Source: Psychrobacter aquaticus CMS 56 (GTDB lineage: Bacteria; Pseudomonadota; Gammaproteobacteria; Pseudomonadales; Moraxellaceae). Taken from it: a stretch of 64,000 bases of DNA. Location: contig NZ_AUSW01000035.1 of the NCBI RefSeq assembly GCF_000471625.1, positions 310,001 to 374,000 on the forward strand, in the 5' to 3' direction. Shown piece by piece: positions 25,065 to 40,411 of this stretch (its first letter is position 1; each line of letters begins with the position of its first letter). A model generated the notes under the pieces. That model was not told where the DNA came from and made no database searches. It was given only the letters and a program-made list of their open reading frames with translations. The translations under genes and the position numbers were made by a program.

Positions 25065-26522
25065 TTATTCATTCAGCAAAGATGTGCTTTCAGCGCTACT
25101 CTTAGTCTCTACTACTTTGGCTTGCTCGCGCAGCGTATCAATTTTTGCTAAGTAGTTTTGACCCAGTTCCTGCTCTGCTGAGGCGATCCAAGAGGCATAT
25201 CCTGATAAAGTTTCAAGCGTTTCATCCTCACGTAAAGGCTGCCCTGAGGCTAGGTTATGAAGCGCTGCACGTAGCATACGTTTTATGTGACGCGGTACTC
25301 TTGGTACGCCTTCGCCATTGATCACCATGCCCGTCACATTGTGCTGATTGCCAGTACGAATGACACGCGTCTTATCATTGTTTAAAGTAAATCCTTCCTC
25401 ACGCAAAATCTTCTGTACGGAACCCAGTAGCTGTCCAATCAACTGGTTGTGATCAGCAGGCTGGACATTAGCCTGAACATTAGCCTGAACATTATTTTCA
25501 GCGCTCGTAGAACTGACAGGTAAGCTAAACGTTAAATCATCGGCGTAGCGGCTATAGCGCAGACCAACTTTATCTGCCAGTCCTGTTAGGCGACGATCAA
25601 GGTTCAAACACACAATATTTGTCAATGCCGGACTGGTAGGCGCGCCTTGCGGTAACGCTCTGTCACTAAGGGCGACATAATAAGTTGTGCCATTTTGCTG
25701 AACGACCTGCCTTGGTGATTCCGTACATAATAAAGCCAGTAAAATGGCTATTTTCTCAGGGTAGCCTGCGTGACGAAACACGCCTTTGACGCGTCGCCAA
25801 TGTACACTAGGGAAGAAATCTTTTACATCAAGCTTGATTAATAGGGCACTATTGCTGTGCACGGCTGCGTTGGTAACAATGGATTTACCGCGGACAAAAC
25901 CGTGAGCTGCGCCGTGCGTCATTAAGTTATTTAAGATGTTTTCTAGAATCCAGCGCTGAACAAATTTTAGACGAGGAATAGGCGACCATATATGCCGAGG
26001 TGTGCCGTTACGTTTGTTAATCGTAAAATGCGTGTAGGGAATATTGGTAGCCACGTCTCTTTGATAGCAAAGCCCTTTTAGCTGCGGTACAGTCAGATTG
26101 ACGGCTTCTGCCAATTGAGTATGTTTGCTTATAAGTGGCAGTTTGTTTTCAATGAGTCGATTGCTAGCGTCTTTGACATCCCATTTGTCCATGCTGGTAT
26201 CATCTGACCAATAGATATGGCGACCCAGATAAACGATGTGCTGCGCTTTGTAAGCTTGCCATGCCTGTTTTTTGAGACTTTTTTCTTCAGCGGCTTCTTT
26301 TTTGAGGGACTTTTTATAACGTTCGCGCTCTTTTGCCGTCATATTATCAATGGGCTTACGCTCGACTATAAAGCCGTGTTGCAGCATTTGCTGCTGGATA
26401 TATTGATAGCGTCCGCCAGCTTCCTCAATATCTTGCCAAAGTTGTTGCCATTGGCGCTCAGCAGGCGTCATCGTCTGCGCGGGGCTGATATAGTCGGTTT
26501 GCTGACTGTTTACTGTGCTCAT
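25065..26522 (-). CDS. Retron-type reverse transcriptase
   Basis: RNA-directed DNA polymerase, 485 aa, last gene of the four-gene operon (3-bp gap after the SWIM gene). Retron hallmarks are all visible: NAAVH (218-222, the NAxxH box), catalytic LDVKDFFPS (231-239), LPQGAPTSP (290-298), YADD (326-329) and VTG (396-398). About 150 residues precede the fingers, with a Lys/Glu-rich probable coiled coil at 62-92; most retron RTs are nearer 320 aa. A 12-nt in-frame repeat encodes NVQANVQANVQ after the YADD region. It should make msDNA from the RNA at 40088-40334, which is on the other strand and 13.6 kb away. Confidence 0.95.
   Translation of the reverse strand: MSTVNSQQTDYISPAQTMTPAERQWQQLWQDIEEAGGRYQYIQQQMLQHGFIVERKPIDNMTAKERERYKKSLKKEAAEEKSLKKQAWQAYKAQHIVYLGRHIYWSDDTSMDKWDVKDASNRLIENKLPLISKHTQLAEAVNLTVPQLKGLCYQRDVATNIPYTHFTINKRNGTPRHIWSPIPRLKFVQRWILENILNNLMTHGAAHGFVRGKSIVTNAAVHSNSALLIKLDVKDFFPSVHWRRVKGVFRHAGYPEKIAILLALLCTESPRQVVQQNGTTYYVALSDRALPQGAPTSPALTNIVCLNLDRRLTGLADKVGLRYSRYADDLTFSLPVSSTSAENNVQANVQANVQPADHNQLIGQLLGSVQKILREEGFTLNNDKTRVIRTGNQHNVTGMVINGEGVPRVPRHIKRMLRAALHNLASGQPLREDETLETLSGYASWIASAEQELGQNYLAKIDTLREQAKVVETKSSAESTSLLNE
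25461..25496. repeat. 12-nt tandem repeat inside RT gene
   Basis: Nearly three direct copies of a 12-base unit (ACATTAGCCTGA phase) give a repeated QANV tetrapeptide in the RT just after the catalytic palm. The unit is a multiple of three, so copy-number change would lengthen or shorten a surface loop without breaking the frame. Confidence 0.8.
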
Positions 26523-26525
26523 AAA

Positions 26526-28688
26526 TCATACCCCTTTATTTTCGATAAAGCCTTGAGCTTCAAATCTGGCAATGTGTTGTAAAAATGCGGCGTGTGCTTG
26601 GGCAGGTTGGTTAAATACGAACTGCTGGCGCGTACTGTCATTATCCATAATATGTTCGATCAGCACTTTTTTATGGTCGCAAGTCAAATGCACATAACTG
26701 ATAGTGTGCCCAGTATGTTTACGTGTCGTCTGCCTTGCATCCGTGTCAATTGGCGTCAAACCTTGTGCAAGAGCCGATAAATCCAATATGTCATTGGCGG
26801 ACAGCGTTGATCGAGCAGCATTGTTGGCTGATTGCTGTTTCGTCTTAAATACGTTTTGCGCTGGGTATGGTGCTGCTTTCTGTGATTTTTGATGATGCTT
26901 GGGAACACGTTTGCTGAGTGTGCGCGTGTCATGCCAGCTGTTTGTTTGCGTGTGGTCGTACTGATGGTAGCTCAAGCGTAGAGCAATAAGATGCGCGCAT
27001 ACACCTTGGCTGAGGCGATGCTGCAAGTACTGCGGACAGCTGCACTCGGCACGGCTGACCAAGCCATCCTCGCCCAGTTGCAACTGGCTGCGATAGGTGC
27101 GGCGATCTTCCTTAACCTGAATATCTGCGCTGATGGATACGCCTTGCGTCACCACGGTTTGCACGCTGAGATTTTGTACGCTATCTTCGCGGCTCACTAA
27201 GTCAAAGGCCTGTTTCTCTGCCTCGTTATGATGTGCAAACTGCGCCATCTCTAGCGGCGTTTGCGTCAGCGGACGATAGTAATAAGATTGATTGGCAATA
27301 TCATAGCGAATCAAACCCTGCTGCGCACCTGATAGCAGCTGCTGGCGTACATAACTGGTTGTAATGGGGTTGTCTTGCGTACTTAAACGCTCGCTCAAAG
27401 CATCAATACCGCTTGGCTGTTCGGCCAGTGCTTGCATCAACGGCAATACGTTATTGTTTTCTTTATAATCACTATCAAGCACATTGTACTGCGGACGTTT
27501 GGGCAATAGTAAATCAAAATTTAGTGACTGCGACCAATTAGCTTGGCTAAAGCCTGTCATGGCAAAGGTAAAATGAAATCCTTTACCTGTGAGCGTCCAG
27601 TAGCTTGGCATACCTTGTCCAAGCAACGACACACTAACGGTATCAGTATGCGGTAACAAGCGCTTTAACAAACTCAGACGACGGCGACCCCACAAGCGAA
27701 TGAGCTTGGATTTTTGTCCTTGATACGGGGTTTGCTGGCGACTCACTTGGCTGGTGACGGCGATGTCAAATGGCTCTAAAATTATCACGGGTAGCTGCTG
27801 CGGTATCAGCTCGATTAATAAGCCGCGGCGCTTACCCTTGATATCGGCATGCATGCGCAGCTCAAACAACACGTTGTACAAAGCAATAGGGTCGAGATCA
27901 ATACGCTCTTTGGCCAGCTGACCTGCTGACTGTACTTGCAATAATGCCCGTATCCAGCTTTTGGGCACATTGATGCGTTTTTCGATGACTTCATTTTTGT
28001 CTTCAGGTTCGCCGTCATCTGTCTCTGAGGATTCTGATCGTTGCAAACGCACAGCCTCTTGACCAATATCTAACGTGGTCGTCTGATGATCACGAATCTG
28101 CTCTATACCGTCAAACAAGGCGCTGCTGTAGTCGATACTGGTGGTACCTAGCACCGTATCAGAGTCCATTTCAAACAAATCACGCTGCAAAGTCAACTGC
28201 GCATAGCAGCCTTCATCACGGCTAAACACCTCAAAGCTGACACCCTCTTGATGCACTTGAATGATAGGGTCAAGGATACAAAAGGCGAGAGGATCGTTAT
28301 TAAATAACCACGTGAAATAATCACGCTGGGCAGAAAACAAGTTTTTGTTGCGACTGGCACGGCGCATTTGCCTAAAAACTGTATAAGCGGCGCGATCTTT
28401 TGGTACATAGCGGTAATCGCTACTGACCACGTCAAATAAGGCGAGCAAGCTGTCTCGAAACACAAGCGGATCTTTGACTCTGCCATGAAAACTGACTGCA
28501 TCGCGATGCATCTGTGTAAACAGCGCCACATGTTGGGTGTGATCAGATTGATTATTCTCAGATAAGCTCACATGGCTGGGCGCGGCATACTGTAGCTGCA
28601 TCATCATGCCATTAGCACTATTAACATGGTCTGCTGGCGTGCTATCTGCATTTTGCTCGATTGTGTTTTCTACTAGATTATTGGTCAT
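26526..28688 (-). CDS. Winged-helix / SWIM zinc-finger protein of retron operon
   Basis: 720 aa. A SWIM zinc finger is visible as C549-x-C551 ... C564-x-H566 (CSCPQYLQHRLSQGVCAH). Just before it, residues about 415-475 read as a winged-helix segment (PLMQALAEQPSGIDALSERL, ending RYDIANQSYYYRP). The N-terminal 400 residues are a mixed fold with no family I can name. SWIM modules bind DNA or proteins, so a nucleic-acid recognition role toward msDNA is plausible. It overlaps the giant gene by 11 bp and is 3 bp from the RT, so it is translationally coupled. AGGA lies before the start. Confidence 0.88.
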   Translation of the reverse strand: MTNNLVENTIEQNADSTPADHVNSANGMMMQLQYAAPSHVSLSENNQSDHTQHVALFTQMHRDAVSFHGRVKDPLVFRDSLLALFDVVSSDYRYVPKDRAAYTVFRQMRRASRNKNLFSAQRDYFTWLFNNDPLAFCILDPIIQVHQEGVSFEVFSRDEGCYAQLTLQRDLFEMDSDTVLGTTSIDYSSALFDGIEQIRDHQTTTLDIGQEAVRLQRSESSETDDGEPEDKNEVIEKRINVPKSWIRALLQVQSAGQLAKERIDLDPIALYNVLFELRMHADIKGKRRGLLIELIPQQLPVIILEPFDIAVTSQVSRQQTPYQGQKSKLIRLWGRRRLSLLKRLLPHTDTVSVSLLGQGMPSYWTLTGKGFHFTFAMTGFSQANWSQSLNFDLLLPKRPQYNVLDSDYKENNNVLPLMQALAEQPSGIDALSERLSTQDNPITTSYVRQQLLSGAQQGLIRYDIANQSYYYRPLTQTPLEMAQFAHHNEAEKQAFDLVSREDSVQNLSVQTVVTQGVSISADIQVKEDRRTYRSQLQLGEDGLVSRAECSCPQYLQHRLSQGVCAHLIALRLSYHQYDHTQTNSWHDTRTLSKRVPKHHQKSQKAAPYPAQNVFKTKQQSANNAARSTLSANDILDLSALAQGLTPIDTDARQTTRKHTGHTISYVHLTCDHKKVLIEHIMDNDSTRQQFVFNQPAQAHAAFLQHIARFEAQGFIENKGV

Positions 28689-31600
28689 AATGATGTCCTT
28701 CGACCTGATTCTGTTGCTTGGCTGTCCGCTTTGTATGAGCGGCCTTCAGCACCTCTATATTTGGCGCTTGTGGGCGTTTTTGCTGCGCACGTTCCATACC
28801 CCGTTGCCAGCGCCGCAAAACTTTGTAAGCCAGTTTTTTCAGCTCAACGTCAGTATGGTGGTCAGCACTAGCAATTGTATTTATTAGAGACTCAAGCCAC
28901 GTGCCAATCTTGGGGTCGTGCAGCTGTCCGAGTGCTTCGATGGCACCTACCTGTATTGACGTATCAACGTTGTTGCCCTGCGCACAGTGATATAGCGCGG
29001 CGGCGTCTTTTGCTTTTATCCATACCAGTAGCTGCTGGTTTAGGTTTGTTTGAGGCGTGTCGGTAGGCAGTGTTTTTGTTTCATTTAGTTTGACCGATTG
29101 ATCGCCTTGCAAACTGAGACGCTCAAGCAAGGTAGACAGTAGGGCTCTATTGTCTGCCGCCAGTTGTACTATCTGGGCATTTGCTATGGTCGTCAAGATT
29201 GGCATCAGCTCAATAAGCAGATGATCGTCGTTTTCTTGCCGTGCCAGTAGCCCCAATAAGGCTTGCTGCCAATACTGATTGACCGCAGTGGCAAGCGTGG
29301 TGACGCTACTGATGACAGGTGATGACAGTTGCGAAGCTAACCACTCAAACACTGAATCACTGGGTGCGGTGTAGCGACAAATGAGCCATAACAGCGTGGT
29401 GATAGTGTTCATCACCTGCTGCACATCATTTAGCCATGCAGTATGACTCATCATCGCTGATTGCGCGGTGACGCTATCAAGTAAGGATTGCCATTTGTGC
29501 TGTGCGGCTGTCAGATAGCGTTTGCAGGCGGCTTGCATCTGCGTATCGAAATACTGGCTAGGGTACTGTGTTAAATAGCGCAGTCCCAAATGCTGTATCT
29601 GCGCATCAGAGCTATCAATCAAACTGCCCAATTGTGACGGACTCATCTCAGGTTTCGCCAGTAAGGCGTTTTGTAGGGTGATACACGTCTGCGTGGGCAG
29701 TTGGTGGCTATACTGAGTGATAAATGGTGCAAGCGTATCAATGCTGCTATGCTTGACAATACGTTTTAAACTAAGCGTTGCTAAGCTGGCAGCAAAATCT
29801 TCATGGATGTTTTGTATTGCGGCCCAATCGTATGGATAAATGTGATCAGTACGGTCACCCCACAGGTTTTGCGCGGCCGTATAAGCGGCTTCCAGTATCG
29901 CTTCATGATTGGTATGTTGGCTAAGAATATCTATCAGTAACGCCTTGCTCGCCTCACTGTCGTGATGCGCTAGTAGCGAGATGGCATGTTGCTGCGGTGC
30001 AAACGGTAATTGCTCAGACAACTGACGCTGTATATAGCGACGAATCTCTGCCCAAGCGGCGGCTGTGTTTAGCCAACGTAGCCCATTTAGCCAATGAGTG
30101 ATCGCAGGATTATAAGGCTGCAATTCAGGGTCTGATAACTGCGATTTTAATAATGCAAAAATCTGCGCACTGTATTCAAAGTGGCCACCATGAGCGATAT
30201 GTCCCAAGGCTTCACAAGCCACATCTTGTAAATAGTGCTCATTCTCTTCTGCCAGTTTGATCAACTTATCATAAGCCTTATATAGCGCAGCTGTCGTCTC
30301 AGTCGTTTGGCTTAAAGGCGACTGTGCTGGCATGTCTGCTGGCTTAACGCGCATCATCTCGCCGATGGCAAGTACGCTACGGCGGCGAACACTACCATCG
30401 GCATGGTAGTCAATACTGGCCATTAAGGTGCTCAATCCTTCGCTATTGCCGCAGTGTGCCAAGCCCTCTGCTGCCAAAAACGGTACTTGTGCCTCTTTAT
30501 GTGACAGCGCTTTTTTGAGTATGCTTTTTAGTATACTTGCATTGTTTTCACGTTTTTTAACACGGTAAGAGACCGCTTTGATCAGGTTTTGAACATATTT
30601 GTCGGGTAGCTGGTCATAAGATAGTGCCAAAACATTATCGATACGCCCCGCGATATCATTTCTATCCTCAGCATCATCTGGCATGCTCACGGCAGGCATC
30701 CAAGCCAATGATCTGAACAGCTGGGCGGCATGTGCGTAGTCGGCATAGCGAAGTAATAAAGTAAATAAGGACAATAGCGCTTCAAGGTCTCTTGGGTGCT
30801 GGCGTTGCAGCCAGCGTAAGTCTTTATGCTCACTCAGATAATCGTCAATGGGTTGATCATAGCCACTTATCATCACTAATACGTCAAACAGCTGCTGGCG
30901 CTCTTGAGGTGCGTCGCTCTCCGGATGCTCAAACAACTGTTGCAAGCGTTGCCGTAGTGGCGCGGCCAAATTCGTATCGCGAAGCGCGGCAATACACCTG
31001 TATACGTCCGCGTTTGACAGCCTGATCGATGAGTTGTCCAGTAAAGCAAGCAGTTGACTGTAAGTCGTCTGAGCGACTTGCTCGATCGCATTTTTATCAA
31101 AATTCTCAATCTGCGCCGCTCTAATACGCTGATAAGATTGCAATGCTTGAGTGATGAGAGAGAGTACTTGACCTTGCTCATGCTTGCTCGTACTGTCCAC
31201 TAAAAAGACAAATAAATCGTCAATCAGCAGAGTATCGCTAAACCTTGTATCAGCAAATAATACCTCATCAAAATCGATGAGCTGCATAAAGGTTTGATAG
31301 CGTGTTTGCCAATCATGACAATGGCGCGCTTGTAATAAAAAGGTCAACTTGTCTTGGCGCAATGCTTGCTCTGATAATATTTGCTCAGAGGCGTTGGCTG
31401 CTAGGGCGGCTTTGTTAGAGGTGCGCGTTGTGACCTGACGCCACTCACTAACCAGTTGTCGCAAGAGTGGCAGGCTCTCGGTTTTCAGCGCCATTAAGCT
31501 GGCTGGCAAATGACCCAGACGCTCTTTTAGTAGCTGGTAAGTCTCTTCTGCCAAGAGCTCATGATTGGTGGTTAGCAAATTGCTCAGTTGTTGATTGCTG

Positions 31601-34600
31601 GCGTCATCTTTGTTGTCAATCACGGTCGATTCAGTCTCTAGGCTACCAATTAGACAGTGCAAACCGCGCTTGACCATATCGCGATAAGGCGCGCTCATTG
31701 CATGTTCTGCCAGTCTTGATGCAGGTATGGGCAGCTGAGACAAGCAGTCCCAAACCAGCTCACGTGTCTCAATATGATGGCGGTGCAATAGGGGCAACAG
31801 CACACGACTGACACTGTCTGACCAGTCCGTCGCCTCCATCACCGCAGGTTGATAGTCGTCGTCTGATATGCTGGCTGATACCGTGTTTGATACTACAGGC
31901 TGCGTAGTAAGCCACATGAGCCCGCGAATGGCTTGCTCTGTGCTGCTGTGATTATCCTCGCTTTCACGAATAACACCAAGCCATGCACCAAAAGCCAGTG
32001 TTTGATAATCATAGTCAGTAGCTGTGTTGCTCGCACTTATTTGGTTAAGATCATCGATATGCTTTGGGCAGTGATGACGCTGAAGTAAGGCATTGATGCT
32101 GCGCTGCCACGTTTGTAGGGCGGTAAGCACTTGTGCCTCTTGGTCATAAGGTCGTAGCGTCAATAGATTCGATAAATTGCACAACACCTGCACTGCGTGA
32201 GCGCGTATTAAGGGCTGCTCGTGCTGAGTCAAATATGCAAGCTGCTGTAAGCTGTTGATATCCACAGTACTGAATATGCTGGCACGCGCGTCAATAGTGT
32301 TACACGCGTTTACGCCGCTGGTCTCTGATAGCATCGTCAAAACGGTTGGGTGCGCAGACAAAATATTGCCAATCTTTAAAGTAAGGTGTTCACTGAGATA
32401 TTGCCAATTGGACATCATAGGTAGACCAAAGCGCGCCAAAATATGAGCATACACAACGGCGGTATCATTATCTGCAAAGCTAAGCGCTTCTATTAAGCGC
32501 TTAGGTCGGGTAAGCGGCGCTGCTAAGGCATCAAATATCAGCAATAATCCGGCAGCAGGCGCATAAGATTGGTTGTCAAATAACACGTGCAGTTGCTGAG
32601 CTTGAGTAATACCCAAACCCGATCGTGCTTGCAGCCACTGAATAGGACTCATAGGCTCGACAAGATGGCGCAAGCTATCATTATGGCTGTCACTGGTACG
32701 CGCACCATTACTCGCGGTATTGTTAAAAAAGTGCTGCCCGCGACCATCGCCCCAAACCGCCAAGGCCAAACTGGCGGATTGACGGACGAGGGGGCGTTCA
32801 TCTTTTTGCCATGTGGCCAGTAACTCGGCATCTTGAGCCGTGGTAATGTACATAAGCTTAGGTGCAAGCCCTTTAAAATCGGCATCAGAATGGTGTAGAT
32901 AGCGTGCATACCAGTCCAAGGCGTTATGGTTTTTTGGATCAGAGAGTGCGGCCAAACCAGTCAGCGCTTCGGTGATATGCTGATGCCACTGCTGGTAATC
33001 GTCGTTGTTTTTACTTTTGCCCGTGGATATGGGCATATCTTTGTTCAGGTACTGTGTAAATACCTCATAAGCTTTTGTTTCGTACTGTGCTTTTATGGGC
33101 TCGGGGTAGCTACTGGCTTGACTTGCCAGCAATTTGGCAACGGTCAGCTGAATATCAGGGTAAGGGCTATTTAATCCTGCGTTAAGTAACGCCTCATAAT
33201 CGACCAAACTGATATTATTGTCATTTGCAGCATCATCTGAGCTGTGATTGGATAACACACCGCTGTCGGTTAGGGTTAAAGCGACCTCTAATGCCTGTTG
33301 GCGCAAATCTATACTATTGTCTGCCAATAACGCCATTAAGGCAGGCATTAGCGCACGTAGCTGCTGTTTACTGGCTTTGGCTTGTAAATGATTAAGCGCC
33401 AAACGTTTGGTATCGAGATGAGGGCTGGCAAGCGCGGTCAGTAGCAGATTGGTGAATCCCAATCGCTTGCTGTTTTTAAGCGCGGTATCAAAGGCTTGCT
33501 TACGAATATTGGCAAAGGTATCTGCAAGCAGTAAGGTCAGTACGGATTGATTAATGTCTACATCGTCTGGATTCTCACCCGTTTTTGATGGATTTTGTAA
33601 TAGCAATCGCTGCCATTCTTCTAGTGCTACTTGATGCACGTCTTCAAACAGACTGTGCTGTAGCTTTTCAATCATACTGATGATGGCGGTTTTGGAGGCG
33701 CGTTCAAGTGCTCGATTAAGCAGTACTTTAACCACCTCGAGACGGATGCTAGTAAAGGGATTATTCAGTGCCTGCTCTAATATCGCGCTCATGCTGGGTG
33801 AGTCAACGGACTTTTTTTTGTTATTAAGTACTTGCGTTAACAATATCGCAAGCGCGCGCTCATGAATGTCTTGATGCGTTGAAGCAAAACCAAACGCTAC
33901 CCAAGATAAGTCATCATTCACCAACTTGCCCAAGGCACTCATGGCTACTTGGCGTACGCCAGCATCGGCATCGTCAAGCAAGGTAGGCAAAATGGCTTGA
34001 CCGTCGGCGATCTGTAGATGGCCGAGCGCTGCCGCGACCCCTGTACGAACGAACGCATCATTATCATGATGCATAAAACGTATTAAGGTGCCAAATGCGC
34101 GTTTATCCTGTAAACAGGCGAGTGCATAGGCGGCGCGAAAACTGATGTCGTCGTGGCGGTTGCTCAGATTTTGTAACAGCGGATCAAGGCAGGAGTTGCT
34201 GAGTATGGGACGTGTCAATACGGCCGCGTTAGGTGTATTTTTTGATACTTCTTTTACTTTTTTCGCAGGTGTTTGCTCTGTTTGCGTGACAAAATCTTGC
34301 GTACTTAGGGCAAGGCTAACAGCTTGGCTATTAGGTGCATTTTCAGTGACGTTGTTATTATCCGTATTTTGGCTGTTGTTTTGATGCTCAAGACGTGTAC
34401 CTATCTTGGTATTTAATAGCTCATAATGATCTGTCGTACGCTTATCAATTTTTAAGTTATCAAAGACCGTACCACGCAATAAGCGAAAATCATCAAAGTC
34501 AGTTAGGGTGCGCAGCAGTTGTGTATCATTTTGAGCATTAGCTTGGTGCTTTAAGGCAGTAATAAGCTCAGGCTGCGCCAGTAAAGCGGTATAAAAGGCA

Positions 34601-36436
34601 GTTTGTCTAACGTCAGTTTGATGATGACCTTGTAGCAACATCAACTGGCGCGCCACTTCTGGGTGGTCTAATAAGCCACGCTGATATAGCCGAATCAGTC
34701 CTGTCTGAATGGTATCAGGATAGCGGCTGTCCAAAGCCATAAAATCCGCTTTTGGGCTGGCGTCTGGTAGTAAATACTCAAGTGCTGCTAAGGCTTGGCG
34801 GCGAATGGGTAGCATAGAGTGCGACAACGCACCCTGCAAAATCGGTAAAACACGGCGTTGTCTGTCCACGTCACCAATGGCAATTTTTAGATAGCCTTGT
34901 AGCGCTGCACTAATGACATCTTCATTAGTGCGACTAAGGGCATACTCTAAATAGGCTGGCAAGGTGTGCAAGCTACTGGTATCAGCGGTAGCCGCTGCTA
35001 ACCCATCAAATGCTGCAAGGCGGACACTGCTGCTGCGTGCTGAACCGAGTTGTTCCTCAAGTATCGGTAAACGCGCCGCAAGTTCTGTACCTGCCAGCCA
35101 TTGCACCAGCTGTAATGCACGGCTGGCGCTCAAGCCATTGCTGCGATCTGCCAGAATGCGTTCAATCAGCTTGAGGGTCTGATGATCGACTTGTGATTCA
35201 AGCAGTGCGATACCGTCTAAAAATGCCGCTTCACTATTATTGCTGCTGTCGGTTAGTAGCTGCTGAATGCGATGATAACCGTCTTTAATGACATGGGCGA
35301 CCGTCAGCAGCTTACCGTTTTGCTCTTCATCAATGGGTAAAAAACGCAAACTTTGATCCGTACCAACGGCAAGTAGCGCAGGTTTTTCTGCATAGCTTGT
35401 ATATGCCAGTCGCTGCGTTTTACCAATGTCTTCCTTGCAAGTGCTTGGTTGACCTTTCTCAAATGCCCATGACTTAATACTGCCATCATCTGCACTACTA
35501 AATAGGCGTGTATCTGAAACACAAAGCGCGGTGATCATTTGACCATGATGGCTGGACTTGGCTCTATCTATCGCCTGTAGCTCCCCTTGTACATGGGTGC
35601 GATAAAGATGCTTGTCTGTACCTGACCGAAAAAAAATAATGACTGATAGGCTCAAAACATAAGGCATTGACGCGGCCTTGGTGTAGTGGCTTACTGCTAC
35701 TTTGTATCAACTGAGCGTTGGTATTCGTATTATCATCGCTATTTATCCATTGATAACTGCTGACGATACCCAGATCATCTCCTACCACCAACCATTTACC
35801 ATCGCTTGAGGTAGCAAGGGCGGTGGCGCGCTGTGGCTGATTGTCAGAATAAGGCTGTACAATAATTCTTGCACCTGTCGCTCCTACTTGCGCTGACGAT
35901 TGTGAAGAGGCGTTACCAAAAAACGGACAAATGACAATATGGTGAGGATATAGCACGATGACAGCTTGATGCAGCGTGCTCATAGCAATGGCTTGTGGGG
36001 ATTTATCTGCTGGCAAATATGCAGACGCTGCGTCTTTGGTATTATTTGCCGTATCAGTAATAACTGTGAGTAACGAATCAGTACTGATTTGATTGATAAC
36101 CTCTGCCTGCCAGTCAGTCTCATATAAATGACCGTTACAGCCGAGCATGATGATACTGTCATTGGCAGTAGTAATAATGGCATCCATCGCACAAGGTAAA
36201 GCTGTTGTTGATAAGCTTACTTGTGCACCCATATTATCGAGTCGATACAAGGTTGCATTGTTAGTAGCCATATTATTACCGTCAGTGCCTAATGACTGGT
36301 GGGTGATAAATAAACTGCGACCTTGCGTGCTTGGTAACGCTGATGACTTTGTGTTTTTTGATACGTGCTCAGTATCAGGCTGTCTGCTGACCAAGCCTAT
36401 GATATGACCCCAATAGGGCAATGTGGTTGTGTTCAT
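28678..36436 (-). CDS. Giant WD40 / HEAT-repeat protein, frame broken at a T8 tract
   Basis: Two overlapping frames (36436-35564 and 35667-28678) make one gene of about 2585 codons if one base of the A8/T8 tract at 35629-35636 is skipped. The joined sequence reads HYFFRSGTDKHLYRTH, restoring a WD40 repeat. Residues 1 to about 380 form a WD40-like propeller (ALATSSDGKWLVVGDDLG, VNALCFEPISHYFF, ITALCVSDTRLFSSADDGSIKSW). The rest is a long array of HEAT/ARM-type helical repeats (LRQQALEVALTL, VRQVAMSALGKL, VRRRSVLAIGEM). No enzyme motif was seen; it looks like a scaffold. It lies 32 bp after the BRCT gene and overlaps the SWIM gene by 11 bp. The break may be a sequencing error, phase variation, slippage or decay. 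Confidence 0.85.
35629..35636. repeat. A8/T8 homopolymer at the frameshift
   Basis: Eight A on the + strand (eight T in the gene). Upstream coding is in one frame and downstream coding resumes one base off; seven T would give a continuous gene. Runs of this length are prone to replication and transcription slippage. Confidence 0.9.
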
Positions 36437-36468: not shown

Positions 36469-39400
36469 CTACAAATGCATGGACAGATTGGGGTAGCGGT
36501 GCAATAAGCGCGTGACCGCGACCAAACATGCATGACGCTCCATCTTGCCTGCTGAATGGGTAAAGGTGAATAAGGAAGGCATTATCAGTGCAGCAAAATG
36601 CTCATCGGCCAATCCCACATCACGGAACGTCTCAATCAAGGCCAATTTTGCTTGGCTGGCAGGTATGGGTTTGGGCGAGACAGTTTGCTTTTGGTCTGTC
36701 GCCACGTGTGTTTTATCAGTGCGCTGTGAGTAACGGCTTGATTCATGCTTTTGCGTGCTTACGCGATTGTCGCCTTGTGAGTTGCTCAGTCGTCCTGGTG
36801 GCAACTCAAACAGTCCACGTTTTAGGAGCATTAATAACTGATTTAAATCGGCAGGGGGATTGGTGGACCAATCACTTGGCTGGGCGTGGCTTGTGTTTTT
36901 TGTGTCAACGTCATCAGCTTGAGATTTATAGTATTGATCGGCTGGCTGCCAATGTGGTGAGACATGGCGCGTCTTATAATGTTGCCAAAGCATGGTCACC
37001 GCTGCATAGCGTACTTCACGATCAGTGCTTTGACTGAGTATATAAAGCGCCTGTGGGTTCTGAAATTGGCGATGACGCTGTAATAATGTCATGCCCAGTT
37101 GTCGCGCCCGTCGTTTTTTGCTGCCAATGAATGTGTTGAGCATGGTCTCGTTTAATTTTTCTGCAGACACATGATAAGCGCGATTGCTAACAGATGGGGC
37201 TGCCAATAGTGCTCGCTGTAATAACTGCGTGACCTCTGTATAAGGAGACTCTGCCATAATCAGCCACAACGTCGGAGTCGGGGACCATCTTGCCAGTTCA
37301 TACTCTGTCAATAAAAGTCCAAAGTTGCGTAGCGCTTGCTGACTGCTTTGTAATAAAGGAATGACGCGTTCCGCACTAAAAAAAGAAGCAGGAATAATGG
37401 CATCCGGATCGACAGGTCTGTCCGTCAATGCCATGCAAATCTGTTCATGGTGATGGCTCAAATAATGGATAGCAAGCTCACTGATGGGAGCAGTAGGGTC
37501 ATCAACCGCCATTGCCCACAATACTTCAGAACCTGCCATGGTGTCGTCTTCGGATACTGCGCGCGATTGTCCGGTCAGCATCTGCAAAAACGCGGTTTCG
37601 GAGATAATCTTGAGTGTTGCTCCTGCGGTGATCAACTCTTCGGCCTTGAGTTGCTTGCTGCCTTTTCGACCTGCACCATACAGAGGCGAGCCTTCATCGC
37701 CAATCACTAGATAGTCCAGTTTATTATTAACGGCACTACTGATAGCGCCATTGGCGGCTTTGACCAGTTTTTCAGCGTCGCCACGGCTCATGCTTTGCAT
37801 TTTCCCAGTGAACAAATAGCGTTGACCAGCCAAATCAACCTCAGTATCAGCGACAGCGATGTGTACTTCTTGGTTTATGTTTTCTTCTGAGAGTGTGTTC
37901 TGATTAACTAAAAAATCAGCAGGTAGAAAGCCTTTATTGATACGCTCAATCGCAAATTCGCGGTAGGCTGTCTGCTCGCTGCGTGCAAGTGTCATTAGCC
38001 AATCAAATGTCAATTGCGTTGGCGCAAACCTTCGCACATCAGCGAGCCAGCCACGTACGGTATCTGCCAAATAGTCATCAAAGGCTAAGTTTTTTTGCCA
38101 TTGTTTGACCGTATCTGAGTTCAAATGATGATTTATGTCATCATGACCATGGCTATAATTGGTGAGATAAGGAGAGGTTTTGAGCTGCACCACCTCACTA
38201 CTGCTATGCCAATCAGGTTCATAGGCGAGGGTATGCCAATAACTCATGTCCATCTTGGCTGCTGATAAAATATCTTCATTAATCCAATCAATGATTGTCT
38301 CTTGCGCCAGTGGATGCAGCAATAAATATTGCCAAATTGTGCTATCGATATGGCTTAAATCAAGGCGTTTGAGTTCTTGCAGCAAAAACTCCATGCACAG
38401 CAACGCACTGTCATTATTATCAGAGGTGTCCAGCTGTACTGCTAAACGAATAAAATAGTCACTGCCAAGCTCATGCGCGCTATATAACTCAGGCATTCTG
38501 CGTACGGCAAAGCGTGTGCTGTAGCGCTGATTGCTGGTCAGTCGCGCAAAAAACCATTCAGCAGTCAGATCACGACGTGTGAAGTGTTTACTAAGTTGCT
38601 CGGCCGCAATACGATGGTGATAAATCGTATCTAGTAGTTGCCCCCAACCTGATACCCCGACATCAGTGACAGGATTGCGACTTAAAATAACATTGATTGC
38701 AAAGCCACGAACCGGCTCGCAATCTGAGATTGCCAGTAGCATCAGCTCAGATAATGGCAGTGCTTGGGCATAGCTTTTAGCATAATCGATGGCATACTGA
38801 TAGGCGGCAGGATATTTTGAATGTAATAACTTGAGCACCACTTCATGTAATCCAAGTGTCATAAATTTAGATTTCTCAAAATTCGGGGATTGCTCAATCA
38901 GCCATACAATCGTCTCATCGCGTGCCTGACTGTGTGCATAGCCTGCAGATAGGTATTGAATGGTTTGGCAGCTGACATCACGCAGCTGAATCTTAAAATC
39001 ATGCTTTAAGCTGTCAGTCGCAAACTGCCGTATGGCTTCATTTTTAGCCGTGGCCAGCAGTCTGATAAGTGGTGCAGTATCACGTTGCCACGCTTCTTTA
39101 AAAGCGCGGCCCTTGCTATCAAATAATTTGCGTGGTGTATGGCTATGAAAGCGATTGACACCATAATCAATCGAATTATGAAAACAAATATGATTGAGCA
39201 CCCAGCTATTAAGCTGCGGCGGCTGGCCGACTGTCATGGCTTCATCATAGCTGGCAAGTACAGAGACGGCTGCGTCGATATAGCCAGTAGGCATCTGTTG
39301 CCCAAGTTTACGCAGATAGCGCCATGATCTGAGGCTCATATAGGTTTTGGTGGCAAGACTGACAGGGTCTCGTGCGCTTTTGTCAAAACGATGCAAATCA

Positions 39401-39849
39401 ATTTTGGCAGCAATAGACGCAAAAACCTCATAATCTTGCTCATATTCTGCCACTTTATAAATATACTTTAACCCTTTCCAAACGCCATAACTTAAGAGCA
39501 GCTCGTTAATCGCTTGCTTTAAAATAGCCCGTGAATAAGCACTTTTTTCTTCCCAAAGCGCGATTAAGATCAAGTAGATTTTGTAGCGATCAGGAAGGGA
39601 GTATGTGCCTTCATCTGCCTCTAAAGTTGCAATCATAGCCACGCGCTCTGCAAACTGTACCTCAGGGTGCTGCTCACGGAACGAATAACTCATTACCTTA
39701 TTTAAAAATCGCTCAAATGTCAGCTCGTCACCTGGTATCGGCGACTCAGGTAACGGATCGGGCTGCTGAGCTAATAAACAAAGCTTTTCGACCAAGCTTG
39801 GGTCTTGTACCTGCCAAGCATGCTGGATTTTTTTGAATGAAAGGCTCAT
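36469..39849 (-). CDS. BRCT-containing helical protein, first gene of retron operon
   Basis: 1126 aa, mostly alpha-helical with HEAT-like segments (AVTMLWQHYK, AIRQFATDSLKHDF). A single BRCT domain lies at about residues 672-762: LAGQRYLFTGKMQSMSRGDAEKLV, then GGAISS-like AANGAISSAVNNKLDYLVIGDEGS and LKAEELITAGATLKIISETAFL. This resembles the BRCT of NAD-dependent DNA ligase. BRCT modules bind DNA ends or phosphoproteins. Residues about 1010-1075 are polar and low-complexity. It opens the minus-strand operon 238 bp from the divergent msr-msd RNA. No catalytic motif was recognised. A sensor or DNA-binding partner role is inference. Confidence 0.85.
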   Translation of the reverse strand: MSLSFKKIQHAWQVQDPSLVEKLCLLAQQPDPLPESPIPGDELTFERFLNKVMSYSFREQHPEVQFAERVAMIATLEADEGTYSLPDRYKIYLILIALWEEKSAYSRAILKQAINELLLSYGVWKGLKYIYKVAEYEQDYEVFASIAAKIDLHRFDKSARDPVSLATKTYMSLRSWRYLRKLGQQMPTGYIDAAVSVLASYDEAMTVGQPPQLNSWVLNHICFHNSIDYGVNRFHSHTPRKLFDSKGRAFKEAWQRDTAPLIRLLATAKNEAIRQFATDSLKHDFKIQLRDVSCQTIQYLSAGYAHSQARDETIVWLIEQSPNFEKSKFMTLGLHEVVLKLLHSKYPAAYQYAIDYAKSYAQALPLSELMLLAISDCEPVRGFAINVILSRNPVTDVGVSGWGQLLDTIYHHRIAAEQLSKHFTRRDLTAEWFFARLTSNQRYSTRFAVRRMPELYSAHELGSDYFIRLAVQLDTSDNNDSALLCMEFLLQELKRLDLSHIDSTIWQYLLLHPLAQETIIDWINEDILSAAKMDMSYWHTLAYEPDWHSSSEVVQLKTSPYLTNYSHGHDDINHHLNSDTVKQWQKNLAFDDYLADTVRGWLADVRRFAPTQLTFDWLMTLARSEQTAYREFAIERINKGFLPADFLVNQNTLSEENINQEVHIAVADTEVDLAGQRYLFTGKMQSMSRGDAEKLVKAANGAISSAVNNKLDYLVIGDEGSPLYGAGRKGSKQLKAEELITAGATLKIISETAFLQMLTGQSRAVSEDDTMAGSEVLWAMAVDDPTAPISELAIHYLSHHHEQICMALTDRPVDPDAIIPASFFSAERVIPLLQSSQQALRNFGLLLTEYELARWSPTPTLWLIMAESPYTEVTQLLQRALLAAPSVSNRAYHVSAEKLNETMLNTFIGSKKRRARQLGMTLLQRHRQFQNPQALYILSQSTDREVRYAAVTMLWQHYKTRHVSPHWQPADQYYKSQADDVDTKNTSHAQPSDWSTNPPADLNQLLMLLKRGLFELPPGRLSNSQGDNRVSTQKHESSRYSQRTDKTHVATDQKQTVSPKPIPASQAKLALIETFRDVGLADEHFAALIMPSLFTFTHSAGKMERHACLVAVTRLLHRYPNLSMHL

Positions 39850-40087
39850 AGAGGTTTGCCTTAATAATAATGGTGTCAGCGAATGTTATTTTGTAAGCAT
39901 ATAAAAGCCTATTTGAGAATAAATATCAAGAACTTTTGTCAATCAAAAAATAGAAACACGACACTGAATGACGCTCAAGCAAACAAACATAATTGTGCGA
40001 CACTATATGACGCATGCGTATCAAAAACTGTAATTATTAAACAAAGATTGATTGACAGCCTAATTGAGATTCAGGCAAAATAGGGAC
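39850..40087. promoter_or_regulatory. Divergent promoter region of the retron
   Basis: 238 bp, AT-rich, between the operon start (-) and the retron RNA (+). On the + strand the promoter at 40052-40081 drives the RNA. On the minus strand TTGATA (39929-39924) with TTTATA (39904-39899, 19-nt spacer) or TTGACA (39942-39937) are candidate elements for the operon. A 66-codon + frame at 39883-40083 crosses it but looks like noise. Confidence 0.5.
40052..40081 (+). promoter_or_regulatory. Sigma70-like promoter of retron RNA
   Basis: Perfect -35 TTGACA (40052-40057), 18-base spacer, -10 CAAAAT (40076-40081). Transcription would begin about seven bases later at G40088, which is the first base of the a1 helix. 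Confidence 0.72.
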
Positions 40088-40334
40088 GTTGTGAGATTTA
40101 GCGTTTCGCCATTCTTGGTGAAGGACGATGCTGCGTCGTCCACGAGTCAAGCCATTACATTTTACCCAAGGAAGACTGTTTCAGTCCTGCTAATACCTAG
40201 ATAACACCTCTAGTGTCATTAGCTCGCTGGCGCAACCACGCAATCGTGGTTGAGCTAATGCACTAGAGGTGTTATCTAGGTGCAGTCCAGTGAGTCTTCC
40301 ATGTACCAGGTTATGAGGTAGATTACACAACACC
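40088..40334 (+). ncRNA. Retron msr-msd RNA, divergent from its RT operon
   Basis: The + strand shows every standard retron element. a1 (40088-40100) pairs with a2 (40319-40331) as a 13-position helix with one A-A mismatch and two G-U pairs. The priming G is G40101 in TTAGC, just after a1, as in Ec86. Two msr stem-loops follow: 40105-40122 (loop TTCT) and 40123-40141 (6 bp, loop TGCTGCG). Then comes a very long msd hairpin (40196-40280), closed further out by GGAAGACT (40170-40177) / AGTCTTCC (40293-40300). A promoter lies before it and a terminator after it. It is transcribed away from the operon, so RT and RNA are separate transcripts. Confidence 0.92.
40196..40280. repeat. Long msd hairpin
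   Basis: Inverted repeat with a perfect 20-bp outer stem (40196-40215 / 40261-40280), a single-base bulge, a 9-bp stem (CATTAGCTC / GAGCTAATG), a 7-base asymmetric loop GCTGGCG (40226-40232) and an 8-bp apical stem CAACCACG / CGTGGTTG with a CAAT tetraloop. It should become the double-stranded part of the msDNA. Confidence 0.95.
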
Positions 40335-40374
40335 GAATGAGACATCGTAATGATGGCATTCAAGACGTTAAACC

Positions 40375-40411
40375 AAACCCAAATCAGTATATGTACTGAC
40401 TTGGGTTTTTT
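40375..40411 (+). terminator. Intrinsic terminator of retron RNA
   Basis: AAACCCAA-A-TCAGT stem pairing with ACTGA-C-TTGGGTTT around a short loop, ending in TTTTTT. It lies 41 bp after a2 on the same strand as the RNA, which supports the + orientation. Confidence 0.88.

Follow-up and report, generated by a model that had tools for sequence, protein, structure and literature searches.

The operon and the RNA element opposite it

The window, that is, the whole stretch of 64,000 nucleotides of Psychrobacter aquaticus CMS 56 that was analysed, carries on its minus strand a predicted operon (genes A to D) that ends with a retron-type reverse transcriptase (RT) and, back to back with it on the plus strand, an RNA element with the parts of a retron msr-msd. 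The features are listed below by window position; R1 is a covariance model described in the next section.

25065-26522, minus strand: gene D, retron RT of 485 aa (PADLOC RT_XIII, 521 bits)
26526-28688, minus strand: gene C, SWIM_XIII protein of 720 aa (PADLOC, 513 bits)
28678-36436, minus strand: gene B, HEAT-ARM, two overlapping open reading frames (35564-36436 and 28678-35667) matching consecutive parts of one PADLOC model
36469-39849, minus strand: gene A, HEAT-ARM/BRCT-like protein of 1126 aa (PADLOC HEAT-ARM_XIII, 1021 bits)
39901-39929, minus strand: candidate operon promoter (TTGATA, 17 nt, TTTTAT), read by eye from conserved blocks in an intergenic alignment of 11 sequences
39959-39974 and 39998-40013, no strand: two copies of the palindrome CGACA-N5-TGWCG, between the two divergent promoters
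40052-40081, plus strand: sigma-70-like promoter of the RNA gene (TTGACA, 18 nt, CAAAAT), ending 6 nt before a1
40088-40331, plus strand: msr-msd-like template RNA (R1 match of 233 bits at 40085-40334; fold z -10.8)
40088-40100, plus strand: a1, pairing with a2 by sequence and fold
40101, plus strand: candidate priming (branching) G in TTAGC, directly 3′ of a1
40105-40122, plus strand: msr stem-loop 1, by folding
40123-40141, plus strand: msr stem-loop 2
40167-40303, plus strand: msd, with a conserved base helix, a fast-changing upper stem and a conserved tip
40319-40331, plus strand: a2
40375-40411, plus strand: intrinsic terminator-like hairpin and T run (-16.4 kcal/mol, own-rule scan)

The HEAT-ARM, SWIM and RT_XIII proteins of retron type XIII are thus all encoded in one predicted operon according to PADLOC, with gene B split. 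The BRCT match of gene A is below the Pfam cut-off. YADD, NAxxH and VTG motifs are marks of retron RTs, and gene D carries all three; its best match among the sequences of solved structures is the Ec86 RT, while DRT2 is matched at E 8e-6, and NCBIfam retron models match it with scores below their cut-offs. The RT has a long N-terminal extension, the RVT_1 match beginning at residue 168. It starts at 26522 on the minus strand, 13,566 nt from the RNA start at 40088, as the original prediction had it (13.6 kb), although its predicted rank as the fourth gene holds only when the split HEAT-ARM gene is counted once. The order A-B-C-RT is found in the 31 of 65 related loci that reach the RT and in five further Moraxellaceae stretches. 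In a close relative (L178) gene B is one open reading frame of 2586 aa with WD40 and HEAT matches; the frame break in the window lies near a T run at about 35.63 kb and may be an assembly error or a loss of function, and because gene B is split the window's copy of the system may be inactive or misassembled. The same genome encodes a second reverse transcriptase at G000:C14:39138-39632 (52.8 bits to RVT_1). On the other side of the RNA, beyond its terminator, a RhuM/Fic-type gene at 40611-41603 matches the PADLOC candidate PDC-S23.

Structure and conservation of the RNA

The RNA stretch folds at -114.6 kcal/mol, as compared with a mean of -69.4 (sd 4.2) in 200 shuffles, none of which is as low; a chance fold is rejected. 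The architecture foreseen from the letters is borne out by sequence and folding: the a1/a2 helix of 13 positions consists of 12 pairs, two of them G-U, and one mismatch; G40101 stands in TTAGC directly after a1; and two msr stem-loops are followed by the msd hairpin in the standard retron order. The base helix of the msd is formed by 40167-40177 and 40293-40303, and its upper stem by exact 20-nt arms (40196-40215 and 40261-40280). The element is present in a single copy in its own genome, where the 20-nt arm has no match beyond its own two with up to 3 mismatches, and a phage search with the msd gave one match at E 0.4. Rfam yielded no family at gathering score for the whole window, for the RNA stretch (matches up to E 10) or for six related loci; three microRNA models at E 0.24-1.8 are far below their gathering scores and look like chance.

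Alignment A4 consists of 24 sequences, the window and others from 22 loci, and the same set built R1 (247 positions), so that matches of R1 to these 24 are obtained by construction; the seed profile was made without the three relics and a fourth row that contains unread bases. There are 61 consensus pairs in A4, 44 of which show double (compensatory) changes. Paired cells amount to 90.5%, against 36-44% in slid controls, and the covariation score is 0.566, against 0.11-0.15. In 500 shuffles of A4 all measures exceed every shuffle except the pair-type count, which is reached by 16 of the 500, and every measure stands well clear of the slid controls. On A5, an alignment fitted to the model in which distant RNA copies have 96.4% of cells paired, the pair-type count is reached by 88 of 500 shuffles and the other measures by none. 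TAGC after a1 is invariant in all 24 sequences of A4; in four copies read from the deltaproteobacterial MAG G1053 it is replaced by TTTCGAC. The original prediction had proposed an alignment as a check, and here its a1/a2 helix and msr fare unequally. Msr stem-loop 2 (97.4% of cells paired, four of eight pairs changed on both sides) and the inner part of a1/a2 are kept with compensatory changes, the cross-phylum consensus holding only the inner six a1/a2 pairs, with the outer ones lineage-specific; stem-loop 1 is less constant, with compensatory changes among Psychrobacter and missing or reduced in the distant rows L100, L110 and L101. The stretch 40088-40331 on the plus strand is a real, conserved msr-msd-like RNA. 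P. nivimaris (L014/L068) carries the inner segment of the msd hairpin in the opposite orientation to the rest of the alignment; its R1 score is lower, and a match of 71.8 bits is found on the opposite strand.

The RNA accompanies the operon. Among 299 genomes of the family, gene A is found in 30, in three of them only as fragments of 77 residues (profile positions), and the RNA in 31, namely the same 30 and G260, whose match sits at a contig end. In 26 of the 30 fetched loci, own included, BLAST finds both RNA ends, oriented to gene A as in the window; of the other four, two are cut by a contig end, L028 has the RNA on the other strand and L029 was fetched from within the gene. The three relics (L030-L032, in G118, G212 and G166) have the gene A fragment in an open frame of 114 aa, and their RNAs lack the tip and one of the two upper msd arms. 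Under stricter filters only the own genome matches R1 among 398 genomes of the phylum. R1 has no match in three genomes with strong SWIM_XIII homologues (L048-L050, in G790, G686 and G842), and therefore the R1-type RNA may mark one subtype of type XIII, with these three perhaps belonging to another with its own RNA. Plasmids gave no match in the DNA search; the protein search gave 20 records, in which no more than 12% of gene A is matched, in or close to the BRCT part.

Position, strand and signals of the RNA across lineages

A scan of named genomes for gene A relatives gave 65 loci, which include Pseudomonadota, Planctomycetota, Verrucomicrobiota, Thermodesulfobacteriota, Myxococcota and Acidobacteriota. 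In these the RNA is divergent from gene A in 20, upstream on the same strand in 16, on the same strand but cut by a contig end in two, after the RT in one and without a match in 26. All 20 divergent loci are from Psychrobacter, and the window and G006 are divergent too. In the single after-RT case, Candidatus Uabimicrobium (L101), the RNA lies directly 3′ of the RT. Fifteen of the 16 same-strand RNAs lie 75-484 nt from the point where the gene A match begins (with the nearest copy taken for L076), and that of L092 lies 1547 nt away; L114 has a short RNA, at 97 bits. The divergent layout is thus one of several: most other lineages have the RNA on the same strand, one has it behind the RT, and myxobacteria have it away from the operon.

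A gene A tree of 62 rows was made by a quick method; L071 (broken gene A), L102 and L105 (partial) and L116 and L117 (BRCT only) were left out and L025 was added. The RNA position is not known for nine rows, and the same-strand labels of L078 and L083 rest on contig-end-cut matches of 40.4 and 17.5 bits. The 21 divergent rows fall within one Moraxellaceae clade of 23 rows with an SH-aLRT of 100; in the other two rows, L059 and L061, the RNA is truncated or lies beyond the contig, and because of these rows the program counts three label changes. As the divergent rows form one clade, and both L075 (Moraxellaceae) and L073 (Thiofilum), which stand next to it, have the RNA on the same strand as the operon, the same-strand upstream position is likely to be ancestral there, with a single inversion in Moraxellaceae. 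The distant state is found chiefly in Myxococcota but needs nine changes on this tree, in which long branches make single placements unsure.

The strand of the RNA can be read from its helices as well as from the model. R1 scores 233 bits on the plus strand of the window and 13 bits on the minus strand. In the a1/a2 helix, msr stem-loop 2 and the msd base together there are 43 G-U against 2 A-C cells, and 17 against 0 in the seven divergent rows. The upper msd has no such bias (21 against 19, with 0 of either kind among the divergent rows), as would be expected if that part is selected as DNA.

The promoter-like site of the RNA gene (10 of 12 matches) is weak alone: the scan gave one site in 1 kb against 3.1 in shuffles, and the claim of a promoter therefore draws on conservation, the -35 lying within 1 nt of one fixed place in all 21 divergent matches (TTGACA in 19, TTGCCA in 2). 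Outside the divergent group no promoter at a fixed place was found. Downstream of the RNA a terminator-like hairpin is present in all 21 divergent copies, in 8 of 17 same-strand ones, in the one after-RT copy and in 9 of 20 distant ones, the remaining 9 same-strand and 11 distant copies having none by the rule used; on the other strand such hairpins number 4, 0, 0 and 1 in these groups, and they occur in 4 of 295 simple shuffles. A stricter terminator scan listed none at 40375-40411, nor did the promoter scan list the candidate operon promoter at 39901-39929. Taken together, the R1 scores, the excess of G-U over A-C and the conserved promoter and terminator signals uphold the assignment of the RNA to the plus strand. 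The palindrome between the promoters matches twice in the window against 0.18 expected, and at least two matches occur in 3 of 100 shuffles; in a slightly looser form it recurs in the 900 nt before gene A in 13 of the 20 divergent Psychrobacter loci and in L075, and in none of 32 others, 10 short loci and L116-L117 being left out of this count. It is a guess from this pattern that the pair might serve as an operator.

RNA genes also lie far from the operon. A whole-genome R1 search covered 14 of the 26 loci without a match, and the RNA was found elsewhere in 13 of these 14 genomes, namely eight MAGs, four Nannocystis and one Minicystis; binning may be a source of error in the eight MAGs. On the complete chromosome of N. 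poenicansa an RNA pair lies at 7.768 Mb, 3.4 Mb from the operon (11.154-11.167 Mb); on that of Minicystis rosea the RNA lies at 2.751 Mb, 1.9 Mb from the operon (0.866-0.879 Mb); and on a single contig of N. exedens an RNA pair at 9.285 Mb lies about 5.6 Mb from the operon (3.663-3.676 Mb). Each of the three has one full-length gene A match, which is in the operon. In a Byssovorax MAG the RNA is on the operon contig, about 15 kb past the RT. Fifteen stretches round distant copies (up to about 10 kb on each side, contig permitting) contain no homologue of genes A to D except one RT match of 26% identity; two of the 22 strong distant matches, both from G1053, were left out of the fetched stretches. 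The MAGs L084, L091, L104 and L106 have one RT_XIII-like RT per whole genome (E 1e-10), at a place that fits the operon RT, which leaves the distant RNA no alternative partner of that kind; two or more RT_XIII-like matches are found in 9 of the 13 genomes, and for this reason the operon RT can only be presumed to use the distant RNA in those nine. In the MAGs L170 and L171, R1 matches at positions 37-230 only.

Some genomes have several copies. The four Nannocystis genomes have tandem RNA pairs, the members of which differ in the msd stem and are alike between species, and Thiolinea (L076) has two copies. G1053 (L172, L173 and L176) has six strong R1 matches and several RT_XIII-like matches, and the four copies read share a common msr with partly different msd stems. 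In N. exedens a weak R1 match (20.9 bits, E 0.08) stands immediately 5′ of a second RT_XIII-like RT (G1044:C1:7168236-7169923), and a weak match is paired with a second RT in three other Nannocystis genomes (17.9-20.9 bits).

Interpretation and comparison with known retrons

The stretch 40052-40411 on the plus strand is very probably an autonomous template-RNA gene of a type XIII retron, set back to back with the minus-strand operon from 39849 to 25065, and the proposed mode of working is as follows. The two promoters would fire separately; the RNA would stop at its own terminator and fold, and the RT would recognise it through the msr, prime at the 2′-OH of G40101, a role assigned by likeness to known retrons, and copy the msd from about 40303 back to about 40165. 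The product would be a hairpin msDNA of roughly 140 nt, and the complex of RT, RNA and DNA would presumably act with the large HEAT and SWIM proteins in a phage-triggered defence. The sequences show the conservation, structure and strand of the RNA, its own conserved signals, its co-occurrence with the operon and its lineage-variable position; from it we infer the transcription, priming, msDNA, complex and defence. The reading as a retron with divergent RNA and RT, put forward in the original prediction, is supported by the type XIII proteins, the covarying RNA and the strand tests.

In a broader proposal, held with less assurance but still judged rather probable, the template RNA of this subtype would be a free-standing, trans-acting gene. 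One RT would be served by inverted, moved or megabase-distant RNA genes, in several copies with a common msr and different msd and thus giving several msDNAs, and the divergent unit of Psychrobacter, in which palindromes lie between the promoters, would set RNA and protein dosage separately.

The RNA might instead be a structured template or scaffold of the operon whose RT makes no branched msDNA and is more of the DRT type. The long N-terminal extension and the unusual partner proteins agree with this, and the msDNA is here a predicted product; however, a1/a2, TAGC at the helix end, msr followed by msd, the NAxxH and VTG motifs, and Ec86 as the closest sequence of a solved structure, with DRT2 reaching only E 8e-6, make this improbable. 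Much less probability still is given to a reading of the element from the minus strand as the leader of the operon mRNA, with the plus-strand features as a by-product of near-symmetry. The msd is palindromic and both strands fold, and the msd of Se72 is described in a 2019 review (PMC6868368) as transcribed in both directions, but such a leader is at odds with the 13 bits of R1 on the minus strand, the asymmetry of G-U and A-C, the plus-strand hairpin with its T run, and the same-strand relatives, which carry the identical strand in the operon direction.

It is equally hard to credit that a mobile or recombining palindrome, either MITE-like or derived from an msDNA by retro-copying, has come to lie beside the operon by chance. 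Its position does vary by lineage, some genomes have several copies and the inner msd of P. nivimaris is inverted, but the own genome has one copy, the RNA co-occurs with gene A and distant copies keep their pairing and msr in an alignment fitted to the model. 

Should whole lineages have their RNA away from the RT, searches confined to the neighbourhood of the RT will miss template RNAs, and systems that seem to lack an RNA may have one in trans. They would be natural examples of retron RNA supplied in trans, of an RT that makes more than one msDNA and of RNA and protein under separate control. Since close relatives differ mainly in the msd stem, the finding also bears on what msd hairpins sense.

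In the literature searched, including parts of PMC12548924, PMC6868368 and PMC8867640, no type XIII RNA and no divergent or distant retron RNA is named; the main descriptions of type XIII lie outside this scope, so that priority is unsettled and absence from print is not claimed. According to a 2019 review, Retron-Sen1 (Se72) has an unusual cassette with an msd transcribed in both directions (PMC6868368), whereas the window RNA is supported on one strand and as a separate unit. The same source gives Retron-Nex2 (Ne144) of Nannocystis exedens an RT with an extended N-terminus (PMC6868368), a feature shared with the RT of the window. The second RT_XIII-like RT of N. exedens (an open frame of 541 aa) might, as a guess, be Nex2/Ne144; an RNA-like match adjoins it, whereas the strong R1 pair lies elsewhere with no RT nearby.

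All products of the operon match models of retron type XIII in PADLOC-DB (RT_XIII, HEAT-ARM_XIII, SWIM_XIII and WGR_XIII). With Retron-Eco1 (Ec86) and other classical retrons the system shares the RT motifs and sequence, the order a1-msr-msd-a2 and the G after a1. The 2019 review presents the retron as one polycistronic cassette in which promoter, msr, msd and RT are joined (PMC6868368). The usual layout, with the RNA 5′ of the RT on the same strand and in one transcript, is not that of the window, where the two lie on opposite strands with separate signals. A joint transcript of RNA and RT is treated here as typical of retrons and not as defining them. Reviews characterise retrons by the joining of RNA and RT; in contrast to the joint cassette of classical retrons, the RNA of the window would be a separate gene on the opposite strand, 13.6 kb from its RT, and in some relatives it lies megabases away.
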